The notes beneath the pieces were generated by a model. That model had not been told where the DNA came from. It made no database searches and saw only the letters and a list, made by a program, of their open reading frames with translations. DNA of 64,000 bases from Terriglobia bacterium (GTDB lineage: Bacteria > Acidobacteriota > Terriglobia > Terriglobales > Acidobacteriaceae): contig JAIQFP010000015.1 of assembly GCA_020073165.1 (NCBI GenBank), positions 1 to 64,000 of the forward strand. The letters are read 5' to 3'. The first letter of the stretch is position 1. Each line of letters begins with the position of its first letter. This document shows positions 1,381 to 17,750 of the stretch, in pieces. The position numbers and the translations under genes were made by a program.

Positions 1381-2955
1381 ATGCACACGCGCCGTCGCGT
1401 TACCGCAAGTCTGTTTCTCCTGCTGGGGTTGTTTCTGCTCTCGGGCAGCAGCTACGCAATTCCCGCATTTTCCCGTCAATATGGCACCTCGTGCAGTACC
1501 TGCCATGTGGACTTTCCCAAGCTCAATGATTTTGGCAAGGCTTTCAAAGATGCCGGATTCAAGTTTCCCAAGGATGACGAAACTTTCATCAAGATTCCTC
1601 CAGTGATGCTGGGGGCGCCAGCGCAGAAGGATCTGTGGCCGCACACGATTTTCCCCGGGACCATCCCGGGCTTGCCGCCGATCGGGTTGCGCTTCAATAC
1701 GTTTTTCCAGGTAGTCGGCAACAACCGGAACAATTTCAACGCGCAACTTCCGGGAGATCCCACGGCGCCGTTCATTCCCCGCACCGACTTTCAGTCCGGT
1801 CTGTTCAGCATCTTCATGGCGGGCAACTTCGGCAGTGACATTGCCTTCTGGGTGGATGACGATCTCAGCGTAGGCGGTTCTGGCGCCGATGGTGGGCTGG
1901 GCGACGGGTACCTGAAGTTCGTCAACATCGGACGCTTCCTCAAACTGCCCACCGATGCCCTCAGTATGCGGATAGGACAGTTCGAACTGGATCTGCCGTT
2001 CAGCCCGGCGCGCAGCTGGAACCTGAGCGGGTGGGACATCTATGACCAGGCGAACATTGGCGCCATGAACGGGTTATTTGGAAGACAGGAGAACGTGAAT
2101 AACGCGTTTGCGTTGTCCAATGCAGCCCAGGGGGTGGAGTTCAGCGGGGGCCATCAATACCGCGGCTATCACTACTCGATCGCCTTCATAAACCAGAATA
2201 CTGGCGGCACCCCCGGCAGCGGGAACAATGTTCCACCGGAGGTGACCTATACCTCCGACTCCAACTTCAAGGACATCTACGCGCGCCTTTCCTATCGCTT
2301 CAACCTGGAACGCGATCCTGCCAGCCGCAATGAGATTCAGGCGGCGGGAGCGACCGGTCCTCGTGACCATACCTATCTGAGCGTCGGAGGCTTGTACTTC
2401 TATGGCCGTTCGGTGCAGCGGTTCCAGGGGCAGGACGCCGCGGGAGTGCCAGTGGTGCTGACGGCGCGCGAGCCTTTCTATCGCGTGGGTGGCGATTTCA
2501 GCTTCAACTACCGCACCTTCAACCTGTTCGGACAGTTCATTTACGGGCGCGACCAGAACCTGCTGCCGGTGCTGCCTCCGGAGTTTGAGTTTCCTTCGGG
2601 CTTTACCAAGGGAAGTCCGGCGCATTTCAGCGGCGGCTTTCTGGAAGCAGACTACCTGGCATACCCGTGGCTGATGTTGATCATGCGATGGGACCAGGTG
2701 AAGTCGACCGCCGACCTGCTCAACGGGGTGGGCACGACACCGGACGATTCCGTTGCACCATTCGCCTCGCCATTCCATTCCACGCGAAATCGCTTCACAC
2801 CGGGAGTACAATTCCTGGTTCACGCCAATATTAAGGCATCGTTTGAGTACCAGATTCGGCCACAGCAGATTGTGTTCGAACAGGGAAGCAATGTCCCGCT
2901 TACCAATCCATTTCGCACTAACTCGGCCGTCGCAGGATTGGAGTGGGTTTACTAG
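1381..2955 (+). CDS. Cyc2-like fused monohaem cytochrome c-porin
   Basis: A 524-residue exported protein. Residues 1-26 form a signal peptide ending in SSYA. A single c-type haem motif follows at once (C38-S-T-C41-H42) in the context RQYGTSCSTCHVDFPKLND, then FGKAFKDAGFKF. The remaining 450 residues alternate polar and aromatic residues with many Gly/Asn turns and end in GLEWVY, a typical outer-membrane barrel terminus with a final aromatic. Short N-terminal haem domain plus large porin is the architecture of Cyc2, the outer-membrane cytochrome of Fe(II) oxidisers, and 524 residues is close to that family. The start is fixed by AAGGAGG seven bases upstream. A terminator and a cupredoxin gene follow. 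Similar monohaem porins of unknown function also exist, so iron oxidation is inference; outer-membrane electron transfer is the safer claim. Confidence 0.75.
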   Translation: MHTRRRVTASLFLLLGLFLLSGSSYAIPAFSRQYGTSCSTCHVDFPKLNDFGKAFKDAGFKFPKDDETFIKIPPVMLGAPAQKDLWPHTIFPGTIPGLPPIGLRFNTFFQVVGNNRNNFNAQLPGDPTAPFIPRTDFQSGLFSIFMAGNFGSDIAFWVDDDLSVGGSGADGGLGDGYLKFVNIGRFLKLPTDALSMRIGQFELDLPFSPARSWNLSGWDIYDQANIGAMNGLFGRQENVNNAFALSNAAQGVEFSGGHQYRGYHYSIAFINQNTGGTPGSGNNVPPEVTYTSDSNFKDIYARLSYRFNLERDPASRNEIQAAGATGPRDHTYLSVGGLYFYGRSVQRFQGQDAAGVPVVLTAREPFYRVGGDFSFNYRTFNLFGQFIYGRDQNLLPVLPPEFEFPSGFTKGSPAHFSGGFLEADYLAYPWLMLIMRWDQVKSTADLLNGVGTTPDDSVAPFASPFHSTRNRFTPGVQFLVHANIKASFEYQIRPQQIVFEQGSNVPLTNPFRTNSAVAGLEWVY

Positions 2956-2957
2956 AT

Positions 2958-2981
2958 GGGGAGGCAACCCTCCCCTTTTTT
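2958..2981 (+). terminator. Rho-independent terminator
   Basis: A perfect 7-bp stem GGGGAGG/CCTCCCC (2958-2964, 2969-2975) with loop CAAC is followed by six T. It starts two bases after the cytochrome-porin stop codon. It may attenuate read-through into the cupredoxin gene rather than fully separate the two. Confidence 0.85.
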
Positions 2982-2999
2982 CTTAGAACAGGAGAGATG

Positions 3000-3581
3000 A
3001 TGAAACGCAATGTCCTGATTGCAATCGTAGTGGTGGCAGCACTCACGGTGGCAGCAAATGCCGGCACCATCAGTGGGAAGGTGTCCGGCGTAGCCGGAGA
3101 GTCGGTGGTGTATGTCGATACAATCGCTGGCAAGACCTTTCCCACGCCGGCCCAACATCCCCTCATAGACCAGAAAGGCCTGCTCTTCCAGCCACACATC
3201 ACGGTGATACAGGCAGGCACGACGGTAGATTTTCTGAATAGCGATGCCGTCGCCCACAATGTCTTCTGGCCCTCCGTTGGTGGCAACAAGAAACTGACCC
3301 ACAACCTGGGCACGTGGCCGAAAGGAGAGAAGCGCTCTTTCAAGTTCGACAATCCCGGAGCAGTCCCCCTGTTGTGCAACGTGCACCCGGAGATGGCGGG
3401 CTACGTCGTTGTCTCGCCAACCCCGTACTATGCCCTGACCGACAAGTCGGGAGCGTACAAGATCGAGAACGTTCCCGATGGCAGCTACAGCGTAACCGCG
3501 TGGCATGAAGGCGCCAAGAACCAGTCCAAGCCGTTGACGGTTTCTGGCGACACCAAGGCGGATTTCACCCTGAGCAAGTAA
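3000..3581 (+). CDS. Periplasmic cupredoxin with carboxypeptidase-regulatory-like domain
   Basis: A 193-residue protein with a signal peptide (residues 1-21, ending ANA). The central domain is a cupredoxin. H86 lies in AHNVFWP, and C126-N-V-H129-P-E-M132 gives the C-x2-H-x2-M ligand loop of amicyanin (compare C-x2-H-x4-M in plastocyanin), so a type 1 blue copper site is expected. Residues about 143-193 (LTDKSGAYKIENVPDGSY) resemble a carboxypeptidase-regulatory-like beta-sandwich. ATGs occur at 2997 and 3000; AGGAG at 2990-2994 fits 3000 better. Lying between a cytochrome-porin and a cytochrome bc-type cluster, it is a good candidate for a soluble periplasmic electron shuttle, a position analogous to rusticyanin in acidophilic iron oxidisers. 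The partner proteins are inferred from context only. Confidence 0.85.
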   Translation: MKRNVLIAIVVVAALTVAANAGTISGKVSGVAGESVVYVDTIAGKTFPTPAQHPLIDQKGLLFQPHITVIQAGTTVDFLNSDAVAHNVFWPSVGGNKKLTHNLGTWPKGEKRSFKFDNPGAVPLLCNVHPEMAGYVVVSPTPYYALTDKSGAYKIENVPDGSYSVTAWHEGAKNQSKPLTVSGDTKADFTLSK

Positions 3582-3584
3582 GGA

Positions 3585-3621
3585 GTGGGGGAGCGGTGGC
3601 CTCCTCCGCTCCCCACTTTTT
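3585..3621 (+). terminator. Rho-independent terminator
   Basis: GTGGGGGAGCGG (3585-3596) pairs with CCGCTCCCCAC (3606-3616) with one bulged G, then TTTTTC follows. It lies directly after the cupredoxin stop codon, so the downstream flavoprotein-bc cluster probably has its own promoter in 3622-3677. Confidence 0.8.
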
Positions 3622-3677
3622 CTCAACTGATCACAGACTTCCACACGGGTATGCGGTAAGAAACTGGCTCGACCTTC

Positions 3678-5663
3678 ATGCTCAAACGCTACAAAAACAA
3701 GAAAGTAGATCGGGATTGGTTGAACACCAACTTTCCCTGCATGATGGCGTGCCCGGCCCATACCAACGCCGGCCGCTATGTAGCGCTGATCGCAGAAGGC
3801 CGCTTCGAAGAGGCCTACAAGTTTGCCCGCGACCCCAATCCACTGGCCAGCATCTGCGGGCGGGTCTGCGCTCATCCTTGCGAAACCGCGTGCCGCCGTG
3901 GCGAAATCGACCGTCCCATCGCCATTCGCGCCCTCAAACGGTTCCTCACCGAGCGCTATGGCCCGGAATCCAAGCATCCGTTGGACATCAATGCCGGCCG
4001 CGGTCAACAAGAGCTCGGTTTCAAAGTGGCCGTGGTGGGTGGCGGGCCAGTGGGTTTAGCGGCTGCGCATGACCTGGCCCTCATGGGCTATTCAGTCACC
4101 ATCTTCGAAGCCGCTCCGGTGGCGGGCGGCATGCTGTACCTCGGCATCCCCGAATATCGTTTGCCGCGTGACGTGGTGGAAGCGCAAGTCCGGGAGATTC
4201 TCGAGACCGGCGACATCACTCTCAAGCTGAACCAGGCTGCCGGGCGTGACTTCATCATTTCTGACTTGCGGCGTCAGGGTTTCGACGCCGTGCTCCTGGC
4301 GGTGGGCGCACAACGCAGCCGTGATTTGACCATTCCTGGCGTGGACCTTGACGGAGTTCACAAGGGCATCGACTTTCTGCTCAACGTGAACCTGGGTTAC
4401 AAGTTCACCATCGGGAAGAAAGTGATTGTCATCGGCGGCGGCAACGTGGCCATGGACGTGGCGCGTTCGGCAGCGCGCGAGGTGGTGCGCCAGCACGTAG
4501 CTGGAGTGGAGGATGCGGAGCCATCGCTGGAAAACGTGAGCGCGGTCGCGGCGCGGGAAATGGTGGACGTCTCCCTCTCGGCTTTGCGGTTGGGAGCGCA
4601 GGAAGTGCATCTGGTCTGCCTGGAGAAACGGGACGAGATGCCGGCGGCGCTGGAAGAGATTGAAGAGGCGGAGGGGGAAGGCATCATCATGCATCCCGGC
4701 CTGGGCCCCAAGCGCATGATTGGCAAGGACGGCAGAGTCGTAGCGCTGGAGACGCTGACCACCAAGTGGGTGTTCGACCAGAACAAGCGCTTCAATCCGG
4801 CTTTCTACGAGGGCAGTGAAACCCAACTGGAATGCGACACCATCATCATGGCCATTGGTCAGGCGCCCCGGTTGGATTTTCTGAAGCCGGAAGATGGCGT
4901 GGAGATTTCGCCGCGCGGGCTGATTGCGGTGAATCCTCAAACCCTGATGACCTCAGCGGCCGGCATCTTTGCCGGAGGCGATTGCGTGTTCGGCCCGCGC
5001 TTGATTATCGACAGCGTGGCCGACGGCAAGCGCGCCGCCGTCGGAATCGATGAATTCCTTCGCGGTCACAAGCATCCCGAGCCGCTGGTTGAAGTGGAAG
5101 TCTTCAAGCGCCACAGCATGCCGCTGGAGTTGCTGGACCTGGTGCGCCCGCCGATCCCCATGGTGCCGCTCGAGCGCCGCACCGGCGTAACCGAGGTGGA
5201 AGTCGGCTACGACACGCAGACCGCGATGGCAGAAGCCCAGCGCTGCCTGCACTGCTGGGTGAACACGATTTTCGAGGGCAGTCCGGAAGACGGCAGCATG
5301 TGCATCCTGTGTGGGGGATGTGTGGACGTGTGTCCGGAGAACTGCCTGCAACTGGTTTCGCTCGACCGCATCGCCTTCGAACCGGAAACCGTACAGCAGA
5401 TCCGCGAAAACCAGGAATTATTCGGCGTGGAACTGGACGAGGTGAAAGCCGACGAACTCGGCGTGGTGACCGGCTCGGCCATGCTGAAGGATGAGACGCG
5501 CTGCATCCGCTGCGGCCTGTGCGCAGCCCGCTGCCCGGTCGGAACCATCACCATGGAGTCCTACAACCTGGTTCCCGCAGAGCCCACCGGACTGATTTCC
5601 GTCGAAGCCATTGATGCGGGCGTCAGAGCCAGAGTGCCGGTCGCAGGAGGGACCCCGAAGTAG
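3678..5663 (+). CDS. GltD-like NAD(P)H oxidoreductase with 4Fe-4S ferredoxin domain
   Basis: A 661-residue cytoplasmic flavoprotein of the glutamate-synthase-small-subunit type. The N-terminal Fe-S domain has cysteines C21, C25, C60, C64, C68 and C72. A FAD-binding motif VVGGGPVGLAAA lies at about 119-130 and a NAD(P)H-binding motif VIGGGNVAMD at about 251-260. The C-terminal third adds two 4Fe-4S motifs, CILCGGCVDVCPENC (about 541) and CIRCGLCAARCPVG (about 609), absent from ordinary GltD. It is followed after 2 bp by the Rieske gene, so it belongs to the bc operon rather than to ammonia assimilation. Comparable NAD(P) oxidoreductase-like subunits accompany Rieske/cytochrome b complexes in some other phyla, notably anammox planctomycetes. 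Probable role: moving electrons between NAD(P)H or ferredoxin and the quinone/bc complex, direction unknown. The SD before the ATG is weak. Confidence 0.8.
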   Translation: MLKRYKNKKVDRDWLNTNFPCMMACPAHTNAGRYVALIAEGRFEEAYKFARDPNPLASICGRVCAHPCETACRRGEIDRPIAIRALKRFLTERYGPESKHPLDINAGRGQQELGFKVAVVGGGPVGLAAAHDLALMGYSVTIFEAAPVAGGMLYLGIPEYRLPRDVVEAQVREILETGDITLKLNQAAGRDFIISDLRRQGFDAVLLAVGAQRSRDLTIPGVDLDGVHKGIDFLLNVNLGYKFTIGKKVIVIGGGNVAMDVARSAAREVVRQHVAGVEDAEPSLENVSAVAAREMVDVSLSALRLGAQEVHLVCLEKRDEMPAALEEIEEAEGEGIIMHPGLGPKRMIGKDGRVVALETLTTKWVFDQNKRFNPAFYEGSETQLECDTIIMAIGQAPRLDFLKPEDGVEISPRGLIAVNPQTLMTSAAGIFAGGDCVFGPRLIIDSVADGKRAAVGIDEFLRGHKHPEPLVEVEVFKRHSMPLELLDLVRPPIPMVPLERRTGVTEVEVGYDTQTAMAEAQRCLHCWVNTIFEGSPEDGSMCILCGGCVDVCPENCLQLVSLDRIAFEPETVQQIRENQELFGVELDEVKADELGVVTGSAMLKDETRCIRCGLCAARCPVGTITMESYNLVPAEPTGLISVEAIDAGVRARVPVAGGTPK

Positions 5664-5665
5664 CC

Positions 5666-6148
5666 ATGCCGGAAGAAAAACAAGTGATCGAATCCAACGA
5701 ATTCAATCGGCGCGAGTTCTTTGTCAAGCTGGGCCTCGGATCGCTGAGCATTGCTGCCTGTGGCACGGCGGTGTTTGCCTACCAGTTTCTATCGCCCAAC
5801 GTGCTGTTCGAGCCCTCCCCCATCGTCAATGCGGGCAAGCCGGGAAGTTATCCCGAGGACTCGGTCACGCTGGATGTGAACTCGGGCATTTATCTGATCC
5901 ACGCCAAGGAGGGATTCTTCGCCCTGAGTGCGGTGTGCACTCACCTCGGCTGCCTGACCGCATGGAAGCCGGAACTCGGCATCATTGCCTGCCCCTGCCA
6001 CGGCAGCAAATTCAAACGCGACGGAGAAAAGATCGAAGGTCCGGCCCCCAAGCCTCTGCCCTGGCTGAGGACCTGGGTCAGCGACGAGGGTGACCTGATG
6101 GTGGACCGTTCGGTGACGGTTCGTCCCATGGAGTTTGTGAGGGTTTGA
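5666..6148 (+). CDS. Rieske [2Fe-2S] protein of a cytochrome bc complex
   Basis: A 160-residue protein. Both Rieske boxes are intact: C91-T-H93-L-G-C96 and C109-P-C111-H112-G-S, giving two cysteine and two histidine ligands and the disulphide pair. The N terminus NRREFF followed by a hydrophobic stretch (about 20-42) is a Tat-type signal anchor, so the protein is probably exported folded and stays membrane-anchored; a tatA gene is present at 51.3 kb. It oxidises quinol at the Qo site and passes electrons to a cytochrome c. The start lies 2 bp after the flavoprotein stop, and its own stop nearly touches the cytochrome b start, so translational coupling is likely. Confidence 0.95.
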
Positions 6149-6150
6149 GC

Positions 6151-6942
6151 ATGGCCAAGACAATCGGCAACTATTTCGACGAGCTGCGCGGCACCCGGGT
6201 CTGGCGCTCGGTATTCCGCGGCGGGACTGGTTCCAGCACCTTGCGCCGTTCGCTGGCCATTCAACAGAACGTATTCCTGCATCTGTTCTCCACCAAGGTG
6301 CGGCGGCGCATGGTCGGCCTCAGCGCCACTTGGTATCTGGGTACGCTCACCTTCGGAACGTTTCTCATCCTGGTCGTTACCGGCATCCTGCTGATGCTCT
6401 ATTACCACCCTTCAGTGCCGCAAGCCTACGCCGACATGAAGGACCTGCAGTTCGTAGTTTCTTCGGGATTGTTCTTGCGCAACCTGCACCGCTGGTCGGC
6501 GCACGCCATGGTGTTCCTCGTGTTTGCGCACATGTTCAAGGTGTTCTACCGGGGGGCGTACCGTCCACCGCGCGAGTTCAACTGGGTGATTGGGATCATC
6601 CTGCTGCTGGTTACTTTGTTCTTGAGCTACACCGGCTACCTGCTGCCCTGGGACCAGCTGGCGTTCTGGGCTATCACCGTGGGATCGAACATTGCTTCAG
6701 CCGTGCCGCTGTTCGGAAACAAGATTCACTTCCTCATGCTGGGCGGAAACCTGGTCAACGCCAACGCCCTGCTGCGTTTTTATGTGCTGCACTGCATGAT
6801 TCTGCCACTGACAGCGATCCTGTTTATTGCCATCCATTTCTGGCGCATTCGCAAGGACGGCGGCTTGTACGCGCAACAGAGCGAGCCTAAGACTCTCGCA
6901 GCCCGAGCTGCGGGATCCGCAGCGGCGAAGGGGGCGCAATAG
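6151..6942 (+). CDS. Cytochrome b N-terminal (b6-type) subunit
   Basis: A 263-residue integral membrane protein with about four helices. The haem ligand pairs are visible: H-x13-H in [16 protein letters not shown], and a second pair with 14 residues between the histidines ending [13 protein letters not shown]. The x13/x14 spacing is that of b6f-type cytochromes b. TGYLLPWDQ is the usual motif of the cd-helix region. The C-terminal half lies in the next gene, so cytochrome b is split as in b6f complexes. ATG 6151 is chosen, with GAGGG at 6139-6143; a TTG at 6145 is possible. The Rieske gene ends 2 bp before and subunit IV starts 2 bp after. Confidence 0.93.
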
Positions 6943-6944
6943 CC

Positions 6945-7649
6945 ATGACCGACCCGAAGGATTTCATCGCCGGCACGGATTCCAACGCCCGCAAGTCGCC
7001 GACGCGAGTGGTGTTCGTCACCCGCCGCACCTCGGCGCAGGTCAAGGTGACCGACGAAGATCAGTTGCAGACCTATCCGGAAGTTTTGTTCCGTGCAGCG
7101 GTTGCCATCGAAGTGCTGGGCATCGTGCTGGTTTTGATCTCTCTGCTGTTCAATGCTCCCCTGGAGGGACTCGCTGATCCTTCGCACACTCCCAATCCCG
7201 CCAAGGCGCCGTGGTACTTCCTCGGTTTGCAGGAGATGCTGCACTACTTTCCCCCGGTGGTTGCCGGGGTGCTGATTCCGACGCTGGTCGTCATCGCTCT
7301 GGTCGTCATCCCGTATTTCAACATCAACGTTGAGGCCGAAGGATTGTTCCTGAAGGACCGCGCGCGCCGTCTGCGGATCTTTTATGCAGTAGCGATCGGT
7401 CTTTCCGTGTTTCTGTTGTTCTTTGACGTGTATGTGGCGCTGGTGCCGACGCTGGTGGTCGCGGCCGTCATGCTGGTGGCAGCGAATAGTTCGCCGGAGT
7501 CGTCCTCGGCATTCCGGCGGTACCTTGCTTCCAAACCGCTTTCTTACTGGATCATGACCTGGTTCCTGGTCGTGTTGTTTGTGCTCACTGCCGTTGGAAC
7601 ATTTTTCCGTGGCCCGGGCTGGTCCTGGGTTTGGCCCTGGAGGAGCTAG
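6945..7649 (+). CDS. Cytochrome b C-terminal (subunit IV-like) protein
   Basis: A 234-residue membrane protein with four predicted helices. It contains HTPNPAKAPWYFLGLQEML, the subunit IV counterpart of the Qo-site PEWY region. APWY here replaces the glutamate of PEWY, as in several bacterial bc complexes, so proton handling at Qo may differ from the mitochondrial enzyme. Hydrophobic segments lie at about 48-68, 108-126, 145-165 and 200-220. It completes the split cytochrome b encoded 2 bp upstream. The next gene begins directly after its TAG. Confidence 0.9.
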   Translation: MTDPKDFIAGTDSNARKSPTRVVFVTRRTSAQVKVTDEDQLQTYPEVLFRAAVAIEVLGIVLVLISLLFNAPLEGLADPSHTPNPAKAPWYFLGLQEMLHYFPPVVAGVLIPTLVVIALVVIPYFNINVEAEGLFLKDRARRLRIFYAVAIGLSVFLLFFDVYVALVPTLVVAAVMLVAANSSPESSSAFRRYLASKPLSYWIMTWFLVVLFVLTAVGTFFRGPGWSWVWPWRS

Positions 7650-9725
7650 GTGGAACCGTCCCAGAACAAGTCGTCCTCCCTGTGGCAGACGTTGTTCGGC
7701 CATCCCATCCGCGCCTTTGGCGTGGTGAGCTTGCTGTTTTTGATTTCGCTGGCCATCGCTCCCGCCAAGAATCATTTCAGCGAATGGCGCCACTATCAGA
7801 AGCAATACCTGGTGCTGATTCGCGGCCGCGGCGATGCCATCACGCTGCAACGCCACTTGCAGCCCGGCATCCAGCAGATCTGGCTCCCGGAACTGGGCGT
7901 GGTCGATCGGTGTACCAGTTGTCACGTCGGACTCAAGGAAGCCAGCCTGGCGGACGTCACCACCCAGCCCTTCCGCCGCCATCCGGTAATTCCGCACACC
8001 ATTGACCAGTTCGGGTGCGTGATGTGCCATCGCGGGCAGGGGGCGGCGACCACGGTCGAGGAAGCCCACAGCAGCACCTTGGCCTGGGAGGAGCCCTTGC
8101 TGCCCGCACGCTACGTGGAGTCTTCCTGCGGGCAATGCCACCGGGTTCCCTTGACGGGCACGCCACAGTTGAACCTGGGGCGTCAGCTTCTGGCTCGGAA
8201 TGGCTGCGTGCACTGCCATACCGTCAAGCTGCCCGATGGCACCACGATGAAGGCGACTGACGATCCGCCTTCGCTGGTGCACATTGCGGACAAGACCACT
8301 CGCGAATGGATCTACGCCTGGTTAAAGGACCCGGCGGCTTACGCGGTGTCCGCCACCATGCCGAACTTCAAGTTGAGCGATGACGATGCCCGCGATATCT
8401 CCGCCTTCCTCATCGCCAACAGCACGCCTCTGCCGGGCGACACGGCGCCCGTCGCGGCAACTCAGAAAGCGCCCGATCCAACCGCCGGAGCCAGCCTCTA
8501 CGGCGAATCGTTCTGCGCCTCCTGTCACGCGGTGCAGAACGCGGCGGGAAACCTGGTCGGCGGCGACGTAGGCCCCGAGCTGACTCGCGTGGGCAGCAAG
8601 GTGAAACCAGAGTGGCTGCAGGTGTGGCTGCGGAATGAGCGCATCTATGATCCCCCCACCGAGATGCCCCATTACCGCTTCAACGAACAGCAGGTCGCTC
8701 TGCTTCGTACTTTCCTCCTAAACAAGACAGACTCCGATCTGCTGGCCAACGTCCGCCTGGATGCGGCCACTCCGGAGCAGATTGCCCACGGCAAGACTCT
8801 GGTGACCGAGTACGGATGCGCGTCGTGCCACGAGGTTGGCGGAATCAAGAAGCCGGAGAATTTCGCTCCGGAGCTGACCCGCATCGGCAGCAAGCCGGTC
8901 GCGCAGCTGATTTTCCTTCCGGGCATGCAGCACACCCTGCCGGATTACATCGCGGCCAAGATCCGCAATCCACGTTCGTTCGGGTCGGCGCTCAAGATGC
9001 CGCAGTACACCTTTGCGCCGTCGCAGGTCGACGCGCTCACCACGGCGCTGCTCTCTCTTACGGAACGGGCGCGCACTCTGCCCGCGGCGCTGGCTGTGCC
9101 GGCTCCGTCGGCTTCGACTTACCAGCCCGCAGGCAGGGCGGGACAGTTGATGGCCGATCTGGGGTGCTTCAGTTGCCATGCCATCAATGGACGCGGCGGC
9201 GACATGGCTCCTGATCTCACTTGGGAAGGCAGTTCGGTGCAGCGGCCGTGGCTGGCAGAATTCCTCAAGAACCCCAACACGCTGCGCCCCGCGCTCATCC
9301 GCCGCATGCCCAGGTTCAACCTCAGCGATGGCGAGATCAACGAACTGACCAACTACATCATGACCGTTTACCAGAGTCCCGCCATCGACCGCGACTCCAT
9401 GCCGCTAAGCGGCTATCCGGCGGCACAGGTGGAGCAGGGCAGGCAACTCTTTTACTCGAAGTATGCCTGCCAGTCCTGCCACATCGTGGACACGAAAACT
9501 GACAAAGGCTACATCGGTCCCACGCTGACCCAGGTCGGCTCCCGCCTGACGCCAGCGTGGATTTACTCCTGGCTGAAGAACCCGCAGGCGCTGCGTCCCG
9601 GTACCATCGAGCCCAACCGCAACATGAGTGATGAAGATGCCCGCGCGCTGACCGCCTACCTGGCAACGCTGAAGAGTTCCGGCAAGCCGGGGACGAAAGT
9701 GGCCAGGCTGGAGGCGCGGCCATGA
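7650..9725 (+). CDS. Octahaem cytochrome c (bc-complex-associated)
   Basis: A 691-residue protein beginning with GTG. One N-terminal helix (about 25-45) anchors it with the bulk outside the cytoplasm. Eight CXXCH motifs are seen: CTSCH (about residue 88), CVMCH (123), CGQCH (160), CVHCH (186), CASCH (289), CASCH (390), CFSCH (506) and CQSCH (607). The last five domains each have the RxGSK..WL..WLKNP pattern and a methionine in a xMPxF/Y context, as in class I cytochromes c, so the protein looks like a tandem chain of monohaem domains after a compact haem-rich N terminus. It probably takes the place of cytochrome c1/f and extends the path across the periplasm. Coupled at both ends to its neighbours. 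Confidence 0.92.
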   Translation: MEPSQNKSSSLWQTLFGHPIRAFGVVSLLFLISLAIAPAKNHFSEWRHYQKQYLVLIRGRGDAITLQRHLQPGIQQIWLPELGVVDRCTSCHVGLKEASLADVTTQPFRRHPVIPHTIDQFGCVMCHRGQGAATTVEEAHSSTLAWEEPLLPARYVESSCGQCHRVPLTGTPQLNLGRQLLARNGCVHCHTVKLPDGTTMKATDDPPSLVHIADKTTREWIYAWLKDPAAYAVSATMPNFKLSDDDARDISAFLIANSTPLPGDTAPVAATQKAPDPTAGASLYGESFCASCHAVQNAAGNLVGGDVGPELTRVGSKVKPEWLQVWLRNERIYDPPTEMPHYRFNEQQVALLRTFLLNKTDSDLLANVRLDAATPEQIAHGKTLVTEYGCASCHEVGGIKKPENFAPELTRIGSKPVAQLIFLPGMQHTLPDYIAAKIRNPRSFGSALKMPQYTFAPSQVDALTTALLSLTERARTLPAALAVPAPSASTYQPAGRAGQLMADLGCFSCHAINGRGGDMAPDLTWEGSSVQRPWLAEFLKNPNTLRPALIRRMPRFNLSDGEINELTNYIMTVYQSPAIDRDSMPLSGYPAAQVEQGRQLFYSKYACQSCHIVDTKTDKGYIGPTLTQVGSRLTPAWIYSWLKNPQALRPGTIEPNRNMSDEDARALTAYLATLKSSGKPGTKVARLEARP

Positions 9726-10453
9726 CGCGACTCATCACCATCAGCGTAATAGCGTTTTCTATCGCCTTGACCGGCTGCGCGCGCAAAACCGCATCGGCTG
9801 GCGGTCCCAAGCCGACCGCATGGGGTGCAGCGATCGTCGAATCCAGCGGAGGCAAGCAGGCCGGTGCTGTGGGGTCGCTCCTGGAACAGCCAGTCGTGGT
9901 GCAGGTGAATGATGAGCAGGGAACCGCTATTCCCGGGGCGCCGGTTGAGTTCAGCGGTCCCAGCGGTGTCAGCTTCGACCCCCCCAGCGGACTGACAGAT
10001 TCCAGCGGCCAGTTCACTACCAATGTCATGCTGGGAGGTATGGCTGGACGCTACCAGATTACCGCCACCACGCTCACCAAGGCACAGAAGCGAGTCGATC
10101 TCAAACTGGAGGAGATTGCTCTGGGATACCAAGAGCAATTGGGATTTCAGCTCAACGACAAGTACTGCGCGCGCTGCCACAATCCCGAGTCCTCGCCGGA
10201 GCGGGTTTCCAACTACGACAACCTGGAAGTCAAGCCCCACGCCTTCACCGAGGGTGACACGCTGAACAAAATGAGTGACGCTGATCTCACCGCCATCATC
10301 AGTCACGGCGGGCCGGCACTAAGCAAGTCACCGTGGATGCCGCCTTACGGCTATACTCTCAGCAAGTCAGACATCCAGGCGCTGATCGCCTACATCCGCA
10401 TGGTGTCTGATCCGCCCTATCAAGCTTCCGGAACGGTGTATGCGCAAAAATAG
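9722..10453 (+). CDS. Lipoprotein with Ig-like domain and C-terminal cytochrome c
   Basis: A 243-residue lipoprotein. The signal peptide ends in the lipobox LTGC (acylated Cys at about residue 19). Residues about 55-125 form a bacterial Ig-like (Big_1-type) domain, recognised by QVNDEQGTAIPGAPVEFSG and LTDSSGQFTT. The last 100 residues hold a monohaem cytochrome c: CARCH at about 149 and a distal SPWMPPYG methionine. The start overlaps the octahaem gene by 4 bp (ATGA). A membrane-tethered haem on an Ig-like stalk suits a role as terminal electron donor or acceptor to the periplasmic chain. The Ig-cytochrome fusion is unusual. Confidence 0.75.
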   Translation: MTRLITISVIAFSIALTGCARKTASAGGPKPTAWGAAIVESSGGKQAGAVGSLLEQPVVVQVNDEQGTAIPGAPVEFSGPSGVSFDPPSGLTDSSGQFTTNVMLGGMAGRYQITATTLTKAQKRVDLKLEEIALGYQEQLGFQLNDKYCARCHNPESSPERVSNYDNLEVKPHAFTEGDTLNKMSDADLTAIISHGGPALSKSPWMPPYGYTLSKSDIQALIAYIRMVSDPPYQASGTVYAQK

Positions 10454-11744
10454 CGTTGTCGGTTTGGCTGTGGTTCTGTTGTTGGCTGGTGCTTCTCTTG
10501 CACAGGTCCTGTCACCCGCGGAGATTAAAGATACAGACCTCCGCGCCTTGCAGCAGCAGTATATGGACGACCTGAAGCAGGTCGGTCAGGACATTCTTGC
10601 CAATCAATTCGAGTATCCCTTCTACCTCAGCCGCAAGCTGGACCTCGACGAAGCCCAGCAGGCGCGGGCCGACCAGCGTTCCATCCGCTTCGATCGCTTC
10701 AACAGCCAGATTGTATTGGCGGTGACCGGGAACTACTATGCCAGCTATTCCGCCGATAAGATGAGCAAAGACCAGCGGGCGCGGGAAACGCTCTTGAAAG
10801 TGGTGATGCCGGTGCTGAAGGCCGAGGTTCCCCGTTTTCAGAGCAACCACCAGATCAGGGGATATGCCGTGGAGATTTCCCATCACATCATGGGCAAAGT
10901 GATGGGAGTGTCGATGGAACGGCCGGAGAACCTGATGGTGTACCTGCCGCAAGCCGCCGCGATCCGCCTGGTGGCCGCCAAAGACGACGCGACTCAGCAG
11001 GCAGCGCTCCTGCAGGGACAAGTATTCCTGAACGCGCAACCAATCACCATCTGGCTGAACGGCGAGGGCCCGCAACTCGCGGGCAACGCTCCCGCGGACG
11101 ACACGTCCAGTGCCAGCCAGACTCAAGCCTCCAAGGCCGGAGTTGAAATTGTGCACAGCGGCGACGGAAGCGGCGCGGAAGTAGCGGGAACAGCATCCGC
11201 TGTCCCAAGCTTCCCAAAGCCGAAAGAACCTCCACCGGCTCCGCCACGGGACACTTCGTCTCAGGCGCTAGCCGGGCTACAGGCTGCCAACCAGGAACTC
11301 ATCGGCCAGATCGTGAAAGAGCTGGATGCCCAGGCCCACTTTGTAACCTACACGACCCCGAGCTTTGTAGCCTTCCGCCAGGGAATTTATCTCGAACTCT
11401 CGATCAATACCAACCTGCCCGAATCCGCCGGCGGATCACGTTACAAGCTGGCAGCCGTGGCGTTCGATGATCACGTGGCCCACCTGGTCCGGCCGGCGCT
11501 GGCCTATTTCAAGGATGAGCCGAAGTTCGACGGCATCGGATTCAGTACCACGGTGCACGTGGCCGGAAAATCAGCGGCGGCCAGCACGTCGCAAGCGGTG
11601 GAATTCTTCTTTCCGTTCTCCGCTCTGCACTGCTATGAAAAGTACGATTGCACCGGCCAGCAGTTGATTGACGCCGGGACGGTGCTGGTCAACGGGGAAC
11701 GAGTCGGACTCGATCTCCAGGTAGCGGAGGCGGGCGGGCGGTAG
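10440..11744 (+). CDS. Exported protein of unknown function, end of bc operon
   Basis: A 434-residue protein with a clear signal peptide (residues 1-21, ASLAQ). No family is recognised. Residues 30-190 are rich in helix-forming and charged residues. A Pro/Ala/Ser-rich linker follows at about 215-280 (KPKEPPPAPPRD), then a beta-rich C-terminal domain with YEKYDCTGQQLID; its cysteines are few and it has no CXXCH. The start overlaps the lipoprotein gene by 14 bp, so it is co-translated with the electron-transfer operon and probably serves it, for example in assembly or as an accessory subunit. This role is inferred from coupling alone. Confidence 0.65.
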   Translation: MRKNSVVGLAVVLLLAGASLAQVLSPAEIKDTDLRALQQQYMDDLKQVGQDILANQFEYPFYLSRKLDLDEAQQARADQRSIRFDRFNSQIVLAVTGNYYASYSADKMSKDQRARETLLKVVMPVLKAEVPRFQSNHQIRGYAVEISHHIMGKVMGVSMERPENLMVYLPQAAAIRLVAAKDDATQQAALLQGQVFLNAQPITIWLNGEGPQLAGNAPADDTSSASQTQASKAGVEIVHSGDGSGAEVAGTASAVPSFPKPKEPPPAPPRDTSSQALAGLQAANQELIGQIVKELDAQAHFVTYTTPSFVAFRQGIYLELSINTNLPESAGGSRYKLAAVAFDDHVAHLVRPALAYFKDEPKFDGIGFSTTVHVAGKSAAASTSQAVEFFFPFSALHCYEKYDCTGQQLIDAGTVLVNGERVGLDLQVAEAGGR

Positions 11745-14362: not shown

Positions 14363-15307
14363 ATGTTGCACGTGACACCCAAAACCGAGAAGACTGCGGT
14401 CCTGCTGCTGGCCCACGGAAGCCCTGATTCGGTGGACGAGGTCCCGGCCTTCTTGTTGCAGGTGACCGGCGGACGTCCGCTCCCGCCGCAGGTTGTTCAG
14501 GAAGTGCAGCATCGCTACGGCCTGATTGGGAAGTCGCCGCTGACCGAACTGACTTTGAAACAAGGGGAACTACTGGCACGGGAGTTGGGATTGCCGGTGT
14601 ACGTGGGCATGCGCAACTGGAAGCCCTTCGTTGCCGATGCCGTCCGCCAGATGACCACTGACGGAATCGAGCGTGCGGTCGTCATTTGCCTCGCTCCACA
14701 GAACTCGCGCACCAGCGTTGGCCTGTACCGCGTCGCCCTCAACAGTGCCAACAACAGTGCGTTCGCAACCGAGTTCGTTGAGTCCTGGCACGATCACCCG
14801 TTGCTGATCAAAGCATTTACCGAGAGGCTGCATGCCGGGTGGAAGCATGCCTGCAGCGATATGGGGGCCAAGGTTCCAGTTATCTTTACCGCGCACAGCG
14901 TTCCCCAGCGCACCATCGCCGAGGGAGATCCCTACGAAACTCAAGCCAAAGAGACCGCGGCGCTGGTGGCCGGCGAAGCCACTCTCGGCACTAACGACTG
15001 GGTCTTTGCCTTTCAGAGTCAGGGCATGTCCGGTGGTACGTGGCTCGGACCCACTGTGGAAGACACCATTCGGAGTTTCAAAGACAAAGGTCATCACGGC
15101 GTGTTCATTCAGCCCATCGGATTTCTCTGCGATCATGTCGAAGTGCTCTACGACATCGACATCGGCTTCAAGCAATTTGCGGAGAAGGAAGGAATGCGCC
15201 TGTGGCGCGCCCAGTCGCTGAACGACTCACCGCGGTTGGCCGCGGCGCTGGCTGATATCGCCAGATCAAGGCTTGGTTGGAAGAGCGGAGCTTCCGCCCC
15301 GCGTTAG
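14363..15307 (+). CDS. hemH: Ferrochelatase (haem or coprohaem type)
   Basis: A 314-residue enzyme inserting Fe(II) into a porphyrin. The N terminus has VLLLAHGSP, the catalytic histidine is in VIFTAHSVPQ (about residue 177), and the conserved glutamate is in FLCDHVEVLYDID (about 260). It has no membrane helix and no C-terminal 2Fe-2S extension. It lies between hemE and a HemY/CgoX-type oxidase, the set used both in the classical protoporphyrin route and in the coproporphyrin-dependent route (as CpfC); no hemQ/chdC is present here, so the route is undecided. ATG 14363; the intergenic gap to hemE carries the heptamer array. Confidence 0.93.
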   Translation: MLHVTPKTEKTAVLLLAHGSPDSVDEVPAFLLQVTGGRPLPPQVVQEVQHRYGLIGKSPLTELTLKQGELLARELGLPVYVGMRNWKPFVADAVRQMTTDGIERAVVICLAPQNSRTSVGLYRVALNSANNSAFATEFVESWHDHPLLIKAFTERLHAGWKHACSDMGAKVPVIFTAHSVPQRTIAEGDPYETQAKETAALVAGEATLGTNDWVFAFQSQGMSGGTWLGPTVEDTIRSFKDKGHHGVFIQPIGFLCDHVEVLYDIDIGFKQFAEKEGMRLWRAQSLNDSPRLAAALADIARSRLGWKSGASAPR

Positions 15308-15312
15308 GGTCC

Positions 15313-16740
15313 ATGAAGCGAATCGCCATCATCGGCAGCGGTATCTCCGGACTCTCCGCCGCTTTCACGCTTGAAGAGAAACGCCGCGCCGGCGTCCCGG
15401 TGGAATACGTCGTCTTTGAATCCAGCCCGCGGCTCGGCGGCGTCTTAGTCACCGACCACGTGGACGGCTGCCTGATCGAGGCCGGGCCCGATTCCTTCCT
15501 CACCGAGAAACCCTGGGCCGCTGATCTCTGCCGGCAGGTCGGACTTGCCGATCAACTCATCGGCTCCAACGACGCCGACCGCAAGACCTACATCCTCGTG
15601 AAGGGGAAACTGGTCGCCATCCCCGACGGGCTGATGTTCATGGTGCCAACCAAAATCCTGCCTACGGTGTTCTCGTCGCTTTTTTCTTTCAGCACCAAGC
15701 TGCACATGGCGCGCGAGTGGTTCCATCCTCCCCGCAAGGCGGATGCCGATGAAACCGTCGCTTCCATGGTTGAGCGCCACTACGGGTCCGAGATGGTGGA
15801 TCGGCTGGCTGATCCATTGCTCTCCGGCGTGTATGGCGGGGAGGCCTCCCAACTCAGCGTGCGTGCCGTGCTCCCGCGCTTTGCCGAAATGGAAGCCAAG
15901 CACGGCAGCCTGGGCCGCGCCCTGCTGGCCGCGCGCAGGAAAATGCCATCAGCTGCGAACGCGCCCGCGCGCCCCCTGTTCACTTCGCTGAAAGACGGAA
16001 TGCAGCAGTTGGTGGATGCCGTTGTCGCGCGTCTTTCTGCAGCTGCGCTGCGAACCAGCACGCCGGTGCAGTCGATTCAGCCCCAGACCGGAGGCTGGCT
16101 GGTCTCCGCCGGATACGCATCGGACCACTTCGATGCCGTCATCGTTGCCACCCCCGCGCAAGCCGCTGCCGCACTTCTGCAAAGCGCAAGCGCCAACCTG
16201 GCATCCGAGCTCGGCGCGATCCAGTACACTTCCTCGATCACCGTCAATCTCGGATACGACCAGCAGGTCCGTTCGTCCCTCCCACCAGGCTTCGGTTTCC
16301 TGGTGCCCCACAGCGAAGGCAAGCAGATGCTGGCCGCCACCTTCGTCCACAATAAGTTTCCCCATCGCGCTCCCGAAGATCGTGCTTTGCTTCGTTGCTT
16401 CGTTGGCGGCGCGCGCAACGAGCAGGCCTTACAGGCTCCGGACGAAGAAATTCTCCGCGTAGTGCGTGAGGAACTCCGTCAGATCATTGGCCTCACCGCC
16501 GAACCACGATTCGCGCGCGTATATAAATGGAGAGGCGCCATGGCCCAATACGGCGTCGGCCATCTCGATCGGCTGGAGCGAATCGAACGTCTACGCCAGC
16601 AACTCCCCGGTCTCGCCCTTGCCGGCAATGGATACCGCGGAATCGGCGTGCCTGATTGTGTGCGCTCCGGCGCCAACGCTGCAGGGGAAGCGCTGTCGGC
16701 CATCGGATTCGCGCAGTCGCCTCAAATCGTTGCTTCCTGA
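15313..16740 (+). CDS. hemY: Protoporphyrinogen/coproporphyrinogen III oxidase, HemY/CgoX family
   Basis: A 475-residue FAD enzyme that oxidises a porphyrinogen with oxygen. The N-terminal dinucleotide motif IIGSGISGLSAAFTLE is followed by FESSPRLGG, and the C terminus has the FAD-binding end LALAGNGYRGIGVPDCV, all standard for the HemY/CgoX family. GPDSFLTEKPW near residue 60 also matches. ATG 15313, 5 bp after hemH, is preferred over an in-frame ATG within the hemH end. The last gene of the hem cluster. Whether the substrate is proto- or coproporphyrinogen cannot be read from sequence. Confidence 0.92.
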   Translation: MKRIAIIGSGISGLSAAFTLEEKRRAGVPVEYVVFESSPRLGGVLVTDHVDGCLIEAGPDSFLTEKPWAADLCRQVGLADQLIGSNDADRKTYILVKGKLVAIPDGLMFMVPTKILPTVFSSLFSFSTKLHMAREWFHPPRKADADETVASMVERHYGSEMVDRLADPLLSGVYGGEASQLSVRAVLPRFAEMEAKHGSLGRALLAARRKMPSAANAPARPLFTSLKDGMQQLVDAVVARLSAAALRTSTPVQSIQPQTGGWLVSAGYASDHFDAVIVATPAQAAAALLQSASANLASELGAIQYTSSITVNLGYDQQVRSSLPPGFGFLVPHSEGKQMLAATFVHNKFPHRAPEDRALLRCFVGGARNEQALQAPDEEILRVVREELRQIIGLTAEPRFARVYKWRGAMAQYGVGHLDRLERIERLRQQLPGLALAGNGYRGIGVPDCVRSGANAAGEALSAIGFAQSPQIVAS

Positions 16741-16952
16741 CCGAGGGCTTACCTCAGCGGCTAAAGCCGATCAATAAGGTGCGAGATGGCACCCTTCGGC
16801 TCCGCTCAGGGCAGGCTTCGGAAGTCGTGCCCTTCCCGGTTTGCTGGTCCGCCGCTCGATTACTCCCGTAACCCCAGGTAACGTGACTCCAGTTGCAGAA
16901 ACAACTCGCTTCCTTCAGGGTTAATACCATCGTAGGTTGTGGGGGAACTGCC
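16741..16952. other. Intergenic region with dispersed repeat
   Basis: Contains CTTCGGCTCCGCTCAGGGCA (16796-16815) followed by GGCTTCGG, a repeat-like motif. No terminator or gene is seen. Confidence 0.4.
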
Positions 16953-17750
16953 ATGAGGAAACTACTTCTGGCCATTGGTTTGGCTGTACTGCTGTCGTCG
17001 CTCGCCTGGGGCCAGGAACAAAAATCACAGAACGACATGTCGAACATGGACATGTCCGGACACGACGCCAACGCATCCGAGATCCACGATATGCCCGGCA
17101 TGGGCAGCGACGGCAGCGCCCACGCCATGCAGTCCATGGAAGGCCACCACATGGACATGGGCCCGCACATGAAGATGACCGCCCTGCGCGATCCCCAGGC
17201 CGGCGATGAGGACAAAGCCAACCAAGTGGTGGAAGCCGCCCGCAGAGCGGCTGATCGATACAAGGACTACAAAGTTGCCCTGGCCGATGGCTACAAAATT
17301 TTCCTACCCAACCTGCCGCAGAAGCAGTATCACTTCACCAACTACTGGTACGGCTTCGAAGCCGGAATGCGTTTCAATCCCGACCATCCCACGTCGCTGC
17401 TTTACGAGAAGCACGGCGACGACTACAAGTTGATCGGCGTGATGTACACCGCCCCCAAGAAAGCCACCGAGGATGAGCTGAACTCCCGCATTCCCCTCAG
17501 CGTCGCCCAGTGGCACGCTCACATCAACATGTGTGTTCCGCCCGACGACAAGAAGAGAGAAATGTGGGGGCAACACGCGAAGTTCGGCCTGGCTGGTTCG
17601 ATCACCACTAAAGAGGAATGCGATGCCGCTGGTGGCCGCTTCGTGCCCCAGATCTTCGGCTGGATGGTGCACGTCTATCCCTTCGAGCAGAAGCCCGAAG
17701 ACATCTGGTCGGTTGAGCGCCAGATGCACGGTCACGATCACGGGGACTAG
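16953..17750 (+). CDS. Exported His/Met-rich protein
   Basis: A 265-residue protein with a signal peptide (residues 1-20, AWGQ). Residues about 25-75 are extraordinarily rich in Met, His and Asp (MSNMDMSGHD, MPGMGSDG, MEGHHMDMGPHMKM), a composition found in periplasmic copper-handling proteins. A folded C-terminal domain (about 80-265) contains YHFTNYWYGFEAGMRFN, AQWHAHINMCVPP, and a His-rich tail MHGHDHGD. ATG 16953 is chosen because the signal peptide follows at once. No family name is recognised. Copper binding is inferred from composition; the cupredoxin and copper-monooxygenase-like proteins in the window make it plausible. Confidence 0.75.
   Translation: MRKLLLAIGLAVLLSSLAWGQEQKSQNDMSNMDMSGHDANASEIHDMPGMGSDGSAHAMQSMEGHHMDMGPHMKMTALRDPQAGDEDKANQVVEAARRAADRYKDYKVALADGYKIFLPNLPQKQYHFTNYWYGFEAGMRFNPDHPTSLLYEKHGDDYKLIGVMYTAPKKATEDELNSRIPLSVAQWHAHINMCVPPDDKKREMWGQHAKFGLAGSITTKEECDAAGGRFVPQIFGWMVHVYPFEQKPEDIWSVERQMHGHDHGD

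Follow-up and report, generated by a model that had tools for sequence, protein, structure and literature searches.

A Cyc2-like cytochrome-porin and a cupredoxin head a conserved acidobacterial operon that encodes a predicted anammox-type Rieske/NAD(P) complex

The fused monohaem cytochrome-porin Cyc2, as described for Mariprofundus and Acidithiobacillus, is recognized by the signature AXPXFAR[QK][TY] before a CXXCH haem site and PXL after it, and has been likened to OprP and OprO, with a 16-strand barrel (Keffer et al. 2021, PMC8406198). In Acidithiobacillus the corresponding rus operon has the order cyc2-cyc1-cup-cox-rus (PMC10654088). A second group of relevant systems consists of the two anammox complexes of Kuenenia stuttgartiensis (Kuste4569-4574 and Kustd1480-1485), which combine a b6-like cytochrome b, a subunit-IV-like protein, a hexa- or octahaem cytochrome c and an NAD(P) oxidoreductase, and for which the generation of NAD(P)H has been proposed (PMC12954380). 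The present work concerns a 64-kb window (the whole stretch of DNA that was analysed, at contig C6 of a 4.6-Mb genome), in which a preliminary description, made from the sequence alone, had pointed to a gene for a Cyc2-like cytochrome-porin (cyc) followed by one for a cupredoxin (cup), in what it correctly took to be a probable acidobacterium. These two genes head a nine-gene operon, 1381-11744, which that description overlooked (Table 1). An architecture that serves as a marker of iron oxidation here opens another kind of respiratory operon, and its haem signature is slightly altered.

The conservation of this arrangement was evaluated on relatives of the cyc protein from a single contig scan, which gave 322; the named set used below is the best 80 of these and leans toward close ones, and orthologue open reading frames (ORFs) were read from 79 of the 80 loci, L120 giving none by the motif used. 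Orthologues with 67-73% identity are present in seven other genomes of the same family, and cup directly follows cyc in 75 of the 76 named loci that have more than 700 nt downstream, so the pairing is more than chance. Where at least 8.3 kb of downstream sequence is available, the order and strand of cup, gltD, Rieske, cytb, cytbC, octahaem and lipo-cytochrome genes are kept in 52 of 55 named loci. The cyc-cup pair is thus real and conserved, as originally described, but the unit to which it belongs is larger than could be seen at that stage. No recognized description of this operon was found in searches of the open-licence literature.

Table 1. Genes of the operon in the window.
Feature	Position	Strand	Length (residues)	Basis and remarks
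Cyc2-like fused monohaem cytochrome-porin (cyc)	1381..2955	+	524	CSTCH at residues 38-42; barrel at residues about 101-523; ORF, sequence, model, porin matches
Secreted-type cupredoxin (cup), amicyanin-like C-x2-H-x2-M loop and C-terminal carboxypeptidase-regulatory-like domain	3000..3581	+	193	PF00127, PF13620
GltD/Nfn-type NAD(P)-FAD oxidoreductase with Fe-S domains (gltD)	3678..5663	+	661	Pyr_redox_2, Fer4_20, Fer4_7
Rieske [2Fe-2S] protein, CTHLGC...CPCHGS	5666..6148	+	160	PF00355
b6-type cytochrome b (cytb)	6145..6942	+	265	PF00033, 150 bits
Subunit-IV-like cytochrome b C-terminal half (cytbC), APWY for PEWY	6945..7649	+		PF00032, 23.9 bits (cut-off 20.7)
Octahaem cytochrome c, N-terminal membrane anchor (by eye)	7650..9725	+	691	8 CXXCH; PF00034, PF13442 repeats
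Monohaem cytochrome c lipoprotein, LTGC lipobox (by eye), Ig-like domain	9722..10453	+	243	PF02369, PF13442; 1 CXXCH
Protein of secreted type, function unknown; alpha/beta domain present twice (reading of model)	10440..11744	+	434	

The cyc gene has AGGAGG upstream of its ATG start, and its product begins with a hydrophobic segment that by inspection ends in SYA and of which residues 2-19 are helical in the structural model described below. The only CXXCH lies at C38, which is residue 12 past the apparent signal cleavage (by inspection) between SYA and IPAFSRQYGTSCSTCHVDFPKL, and the chain ends in LEWVY. The description of a 524-residue protein with CSTCH right after a signal-like N-terminus and an aromatic last residue is therefore borne out, and the same characteristics recur among the orthologue ORFs: exactly one CXXCH is present in 79 of 79, PXL stands four residues past it in 79 of 79 (CSTCH-VDF-PKL in the window), the C-terminus is aromatic in 74 of the 77 complete ORFs (the remaining three are frame-broken or truncated), and the published minimum length of 365 residues for Cyc2 is reached by the window protein and by 76 of the 77. 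The part of the signature that precedes the haem site is kept less strictly. In the window the haem region reads AIPAFSRQY-GTS-CSTCH-VDF-PKL, which departs from AXPXFAR[QK][TY] at one position (FSR for FAR); the strict form occurs in 21 of the 79 orthologues, the A-to-S (FSR) form in 45 and other changes in 13, while FARKY is the usual reading among distant relatives, and the consensus of the family is A-I-P-A-F-[AS]-R-[QK]-Y-x-T-S-C-x-T-C-H-x3-P-x-L-N.

Searches of family and structure databases gave little that could anchor the assignment. Neither Pfam nor NCBIfam gave a match to the window protein up to E 1, and four of its relatives and two of the Cyc2-type anchors introduced below are likewise matched by no NCBIfam model; against PDB sequences the protein gave only four matches, all at chance level, and the profile of the family gave none, so that there is no solved Cyc2 to serve as a reference. 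The structure was accordingly approached through an AlphaFold2 model, computed from an alignment of 54 sequences (the window protein and 53 from named loci), with a mean predicted local distance difference test score (pLDDT) of 72.8 and a predicted template modelling score of 0.70. The preliminary description had proposed a 16-strand barrel with the haem domain plugging the pore, and the model agrees with the first half of this proposal: 16 main strands are predicted between residues 101 and 523, a count that omits two short strands at 394-397 and 407-410. A haem plug is not supported by the model, in which the haem region has a pLDDT below 50. Foldseek returned 303 PDB matches at E <= 0.001, and most of the 50 listed are titled outer-membrane porins; the VIA list is headed by OprP (Z 24.2, root-mean-square deviation 3.0 A, 308 aligned) and OprO (Z 24.1 and 23.8), although rows that differ by less than 1 in Z count as tied and further porins lie at about 23. 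What is predicted is thus a barrel whose nearest folds are porins, and the outcome that would have spoken against the preliminary description, a prediction lacking a closed barrel, was not obtained.

The relation of the family to Cyc2 was examined in a quick tree of 51 rows, in which six rows of a branch denoted RQT, consisting of Cyc2-type proteins encoded beside small c-type cytochrome genes, split from the other 45 with a support of 99. The RQT rows comprise plasmid proteins of Caballeronia, Ideonella and Methylocystis encoded beside two-haem cytochrome genes, two proteins from genomes positive for the green-sulfur FMO protein, whose genes adjoin that of a small monohaem cytochrome, and a sixth row; these anchors are taken as Cyc2 on the basis of motif and gene context, and not on that of reference sequences. 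A plasmid search with the window cyc gave no match, and one with the distant member L050 gave four weak matches, three of which are the named RQT anchors. The tree is of a quick type with some long branches, its rows for other groups were picked by hand, and it excludes seven of the ten loci of Acidobacteria paralogues (L021, L022, L023, L025, L026, L028, L030), for which the motif gave no ORF. Within these bounds it shows no placement of the window protein with a family of other known function. In the two FMO-positive genomes the RQT gene and the adjoining small monohaem cytochrome gene lie at L180 7769-9416 and L181 7605-9332, a pair which resembles the arrangement of photoferrotrophs.

The question of whether the window protein is itself a Cyc2, with which a lithotrophic acidobacterium would oxidize Fe(II) as the preliminary description suggested, can be addressed from these results. 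The likeness extends to an N-terminus that is signal-like by inspection, the single N-terminal CXXCH, A-x-P-x-F-x-R before it and P-x-L after it, the length and the predicted OprO/OprP-like 16-strand barrel, and Acidobacteria are neighbours of Leptospirillum Cyt572 in a published similarity network (PMC10654088). The differences lie in the diagnostic motif, which the window protein misses along with most of its orthologues, in the partner genes, and in the position in the tree; in addition, RuBisCO is absent, and, as many FMO-positive genomes contain relatives, Fe(II) oxidation does not follow from the architecture by itself. A strict Cyc2 is on this evidence unlikely. As judged from sequence and model, the protein is best regarded as a member of a broad Cyc2-like superfamily, and because the defining motif letter is missed and the protein falls outside the RQT branch it is named Cyc2-like rather than Cyc2. 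The fused monohaem cytochrome-porin architecture stands; a Cyc2 or iron-oxidase label is not justified.

The occurrence of such proteins in Acidobacteria, which the preliminary description expected to be new or little studied, is by itself already in print: Cyc2 homologues in metagenome-assembled genomes (MAGs) of Acidobacteriota are mentioned in PMC9769843, in addition to the similarity network cited above, and another paper notes that assignments to cluster 3 Cyc2 are best regarded as uncertain for iron oxidation (PMC13264449). A phylum-wide scan gave cyc matches in 80 of 297 Acidobacteriota genomes, in many cases over the haem region only. All of the best 80 of the 322 relatives are acidobacterial records except for one contig of an ‘Ignavibacteria’ MAG, and 106 of 395 genomes drawn from the phylum of that MAG match cyc as well (with at most three candidates scored per genome). 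FMO exceeds its cut-off in 58 of the 77 matching genomes tested, which were chosen from the 106 by size, up to 3.3 Mb.

The second gene of the operon was described beforehand as a cupredoxin with C-x2-H-x2-M ligands, and this is confirmed both by the ligands in the sequence (H...C-N-V-H-P-E-M) and by Pfam, with 29.2 bits for Copper-bind PF00127 (cut-off 21.2) and 35.5 bits for PF13620. Ligand and motif counts for this and the other operon parts were taken on 100 loci, and are slightly inflated because some genomes are present twice (e.g. L031/L063, L032/L069, L033/L067): the full ligand pattern is found in 92 of the 94 loci with a cup match, and CxxHxxM alone in the other two. The label “amicyanin-type” holds for the copper loop only: PF00127 is matched as well, but the score for the amicyanin model TIGR02657 is far below its cut-off (32.6 vs 110.2 bits), there is an extra C-terminal domain, and no methylamine dehydrogenase gene is among the nine genes of the operon. 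Rusticyanin has a C-x4-H-x4-M copper loop, which cup does not share. The suggested analogy with the cyc2-rusticyanin pair is consequently a loose one: a cytochrome-porin is associated with a periplasmic copper protein and cytochromes, as in the Acidithiobacillus rus operon, but the spacing of the copper loop differs, and there are no cox genes, a Rieske/cytochrome b complex linked to NAD(P) taking the place of cyc1-cox-rus.

The closest counterparts of this complex are the anammox complexes. The best of the 80 PDB matches of the Rieske protein is 9rk4 (8e-23), followed by 9rk3 (2e-18), which are Kuste4569 and Kustd1480, the Rieske proteins of the two Kuenenia complexes, and the Rieske ligands are intact in 76 of 77 matches among the loci. 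The best PDB match of cytb is cytochrome b6 (1vf5, 1.7e-43), with a tyrosine aligned with Cys35 of b6. The quinol-site motif, usually PEWY, reads APWY in 71 of the 74 loci with a cytbC match, and eight CXXCH are present in 70 of 70 matches of the octahaem protein longer than 600 residues. The gltD product, which has no signal, has PDB matches that include NfnA, NfnI subunit alpha and GltD; PRK12771 gives it 455 bits, below the cut-off of 516, and the family name is not claimed. In NCBIfam the octahaem protein scores over the cut-off of SoxX, a single-domain cytochrome model (132.4 of 61 bits). A resemblance to the Ext selenite/tellurite operon, known from Geobacter, is also present: ExtP and ExtQ are the best NCBIfam names for cytb and cytbC, and ExtS is second to SoxX for the octahaem protein, all of them below cut-off (257.3 of 290, 55 of 150 and 94.2 of 100 bits, respectively). 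The parts named above for the anammox complexes are all found in the operon, namely the Rieske protein, the split b6 and subunit-IV proteins, the octahaem cytochrome c and the NAD(P) oxidoreductase, and judged by these parts it is justified to speak of a Cyc2-like electron conduit to which an anammox-type Rieske/NAD(P) complex is joined. The window operon differs from the Kuenenia complexes in having no HAO-like gene, in its linked cytochrome-porin and cupredoxin, in APWY and in the tyrosine at b6 Cys35.

The operon extends beyond the close relatives, in a setting of peat and soil Acidobacteria with relatives in green sulfur bacteria. The full gene order is found in eight distant acidobacterial loci (L040, L042-L046, L048, L049) in which cyc is 26-28% identical to that of the window. 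Within the family of the window, a gltD match at E <= 1e-100 is present in 15 of 60 genomes, its own included, and there is none at this threshold in the one genome of the same genus that was drawn (91% complete). In the phylum of genome G297, L175 has cyc, cup, gltD, Rieske, cytb, cytbC, octahaem and lipo-cytochrome genes, and L174, L183, L197, L198 and L201 have Rieske, cytb, cytbC, octahaem and lipo-cytochrome genes together with Cyc2-like genes and no gltD match; when the Cyc2-like loci of the phylum of the ‘Ignavibacteria’ MAG were read, the Cyc2-like genes of L182 and L185 were not recovered. Among the genomes of the gltD-less operons L183, L197, L198 and L201, FMO is present in G411, G418 and G329, G384 being outside the FMO test. 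Cyc2-like, Rieske, cytochrome b and octahaem genes thus occur together in three FMO-positive (green sulfur) genomes, and in G411 and G418 cup joins the set.

Outer-membrane electron transfer by the cytochrome-porin is very probable. What is less easily determined is the direction in which electrons would pass along the trans-envelope line that the locus appears to encode, and the reading favoured here, at somewhat below an even chance, is uptake. Electrons would enter from a donor outside the cell, which could be Fe(II) or some other soluble reductant; the haem domain, situated at the barrel, would pass them between its extracellular partner and the cupredoxin, and the secreted-type cupredoxin and the octahaem cytochrome would exchange them with the Rieske complex, which would provide the link to menaquinone and, in Acidobacteria, to NAD(P). 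Of the incoming electrons, one part would go to the oxidases in these genomes and another would be driven by the complex to quinone or NAD(P), in a use that would be mixotrophic and not that of Calvin-cycle autotrophy. The inward direction is inferred, as is Fe(II), which is one candidate among the donors, none of which is singled out.

Uptake is favoured because of the Cyc2-like conduit, the operons in green sulfur genomes, and the electron uptake shown for one green sulfur bacterium; COX1, which 18 of 18 genomes tested were found to carry, counts on the same side. Green sulfur bacteria need electron donors, and the same gene set in their genomes is hard to fit to a line that exports electrons. 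For one green sulfur species, electrodes and partner cells have been shown to serve as electron sources (PMC5227917). The operon is a candidate conduit for such uptake and, if the wider proposal that follows is correct, would be a missing conduit for the known uptake from electrodes and partner cells. This proposal, which is less likely than not, is that a widespread and self-contained module for electron uptake leads from the barrel through cupredoxin and octahaem cytochrome to the Rieske/cytochrome b complex, and from there to quinone and directly to NAD(P) in soil Acidobacteria or, in green sulfur bacteria, where the NAD(P) subunit is lacking, to the photosynthetic chain. Two questions become testable with this family: whether Fe(II) oxidation may be read from a Cyc2-like match, and whether a Rieske complex linked to NAD(P) can be coupled to electrons from outside the cell.

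Several results weigh against uptake through a single line of this kind. The family lies outside the RQT branch of Cyc2-type proteins, cyc residues 22-96, haem site included, have a pLDDT below 50, and no result points to Fe(II) as the substrate. The operon parts may also function separately: in the three exceptions to the full order (L092, L097, L098, of the 55 loci) there is no gltD downstream of the pair, among 19 named loci with 1.5-8.3 kb downstream it follows in 12 and not in 7, and the distant loci L041 and L047 have only cyc and cup within 2.5 and about 10 kb of further sequence. Because gltD is lacking in part of the loci, the Rieske/NAD(P) complex genes are a usual and not a universal sequel of cyc. 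No RuBisCO is present in 19 of the 20 genomes that have cyc, the window's among the 19 (17 of the 20 were seen to have the whole operon; other routes of CO2 fixation lie outside this test), and a Calvin-cycle iron autotroph was dropped as a candidate on this count. Finally, by analogy with the anammox proposal, a Rieske complex coupled to NAD(P) could run outward at least as easily.

This last point leads to the principal alternative, in which the complex would oxidize menaquinol and split the electrons, sending one to NAD(P)+ and the other through the octahaem cytochrome, the cupredoxin and the cytochrome-porin to an external acceptor such as Fe(III), Mn(IV) or humics. The related anammox complexes have been proposed to run in this direction (PMC12954380), the genomes look heterotrophic in view of the RuBisCO result, Acidobacteria are suspected Fe reducers in peat (PMC3669403), the best NCBIfam names of cytb and cytbC, although below cut-off, belong to an operon for selenite/tellurite reduction, and the genome of the window has an MtrA-type decahaem protein beside a barrel-like ORF. 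Export must contend with the fact that the fused monohaem cytochrome-porins of tested function act in Fe(II) oxidation (PMC8406198), and with the green sulfur gene set; a narrow barrel with one haem would also probably be a poor mineral reductase. On balance export is possible and is considered less likely than uptake.

A function apart from long-range electron transfer, as a redox sensor or as an importer of a metal or small molecule with a haem-regulated pore, is suggested by the resemblance of the barrel to porins, some of which are substrate-specific, and by the short operons, in which the gene of the secreted 434-residue protein remains close to cyc, 0.2-1.8 kb downstream (L053, L056, L064, L065, L100, L111, L118), preceded in L053 and L056 by a two-haem cytochrome gene. 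Electron transfer is indicated instead by the octahaem cytochrome, the Rieske protein, cytochrome b and the NAD(P) oxidoreductase that the conserved operon also encodes, and a sensor or importer is the least probable of the functions considered. For the 434-residue protein itself, Pfam gives nothing over cut-off and the model (mean pLDDT 85.3) has no PDB fold match at E <= 0.001. At L098 an ORF like oxidase subunit II with CXXCH (by eye) adjoins the short cyc-cup operon on the opposite strand (6820-7797, minus strand).

Among the 66 loci with more than 3 kb upstream of cyc, no upstream ORF cluster occurs in more than 8, and the operon is accordingly taken to begin at cyc. In the window, an ORF at 210-542, upstream of the operon, resembles by eye the C-terminal end of an Rhs/YD-repeat core, with no Pfam match.

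In locus L211 of the window's own genome (C19:52000-71900) the MtrA-type decahaem protein (TIGR03508, 277.6 bits, over cut-off) is followed, in the stretch 7552-10900, by an ORF of 801 residues that is barrel-like by eye, with further multihaem proteins, and this is possibly a second outer-membrane conduit. All that can be read from the decahaem and COX1 results is the presence of other electron pathways in the genomes. At 14860-17657 of the same locus, on the minus strand, a separate cluster of Rieske, cytochrome b and nine-haem cytochrome genes is apparent by eye, and because of it the complex of the operon is probably not the only Rieske/cytochrome b complex of the genome.

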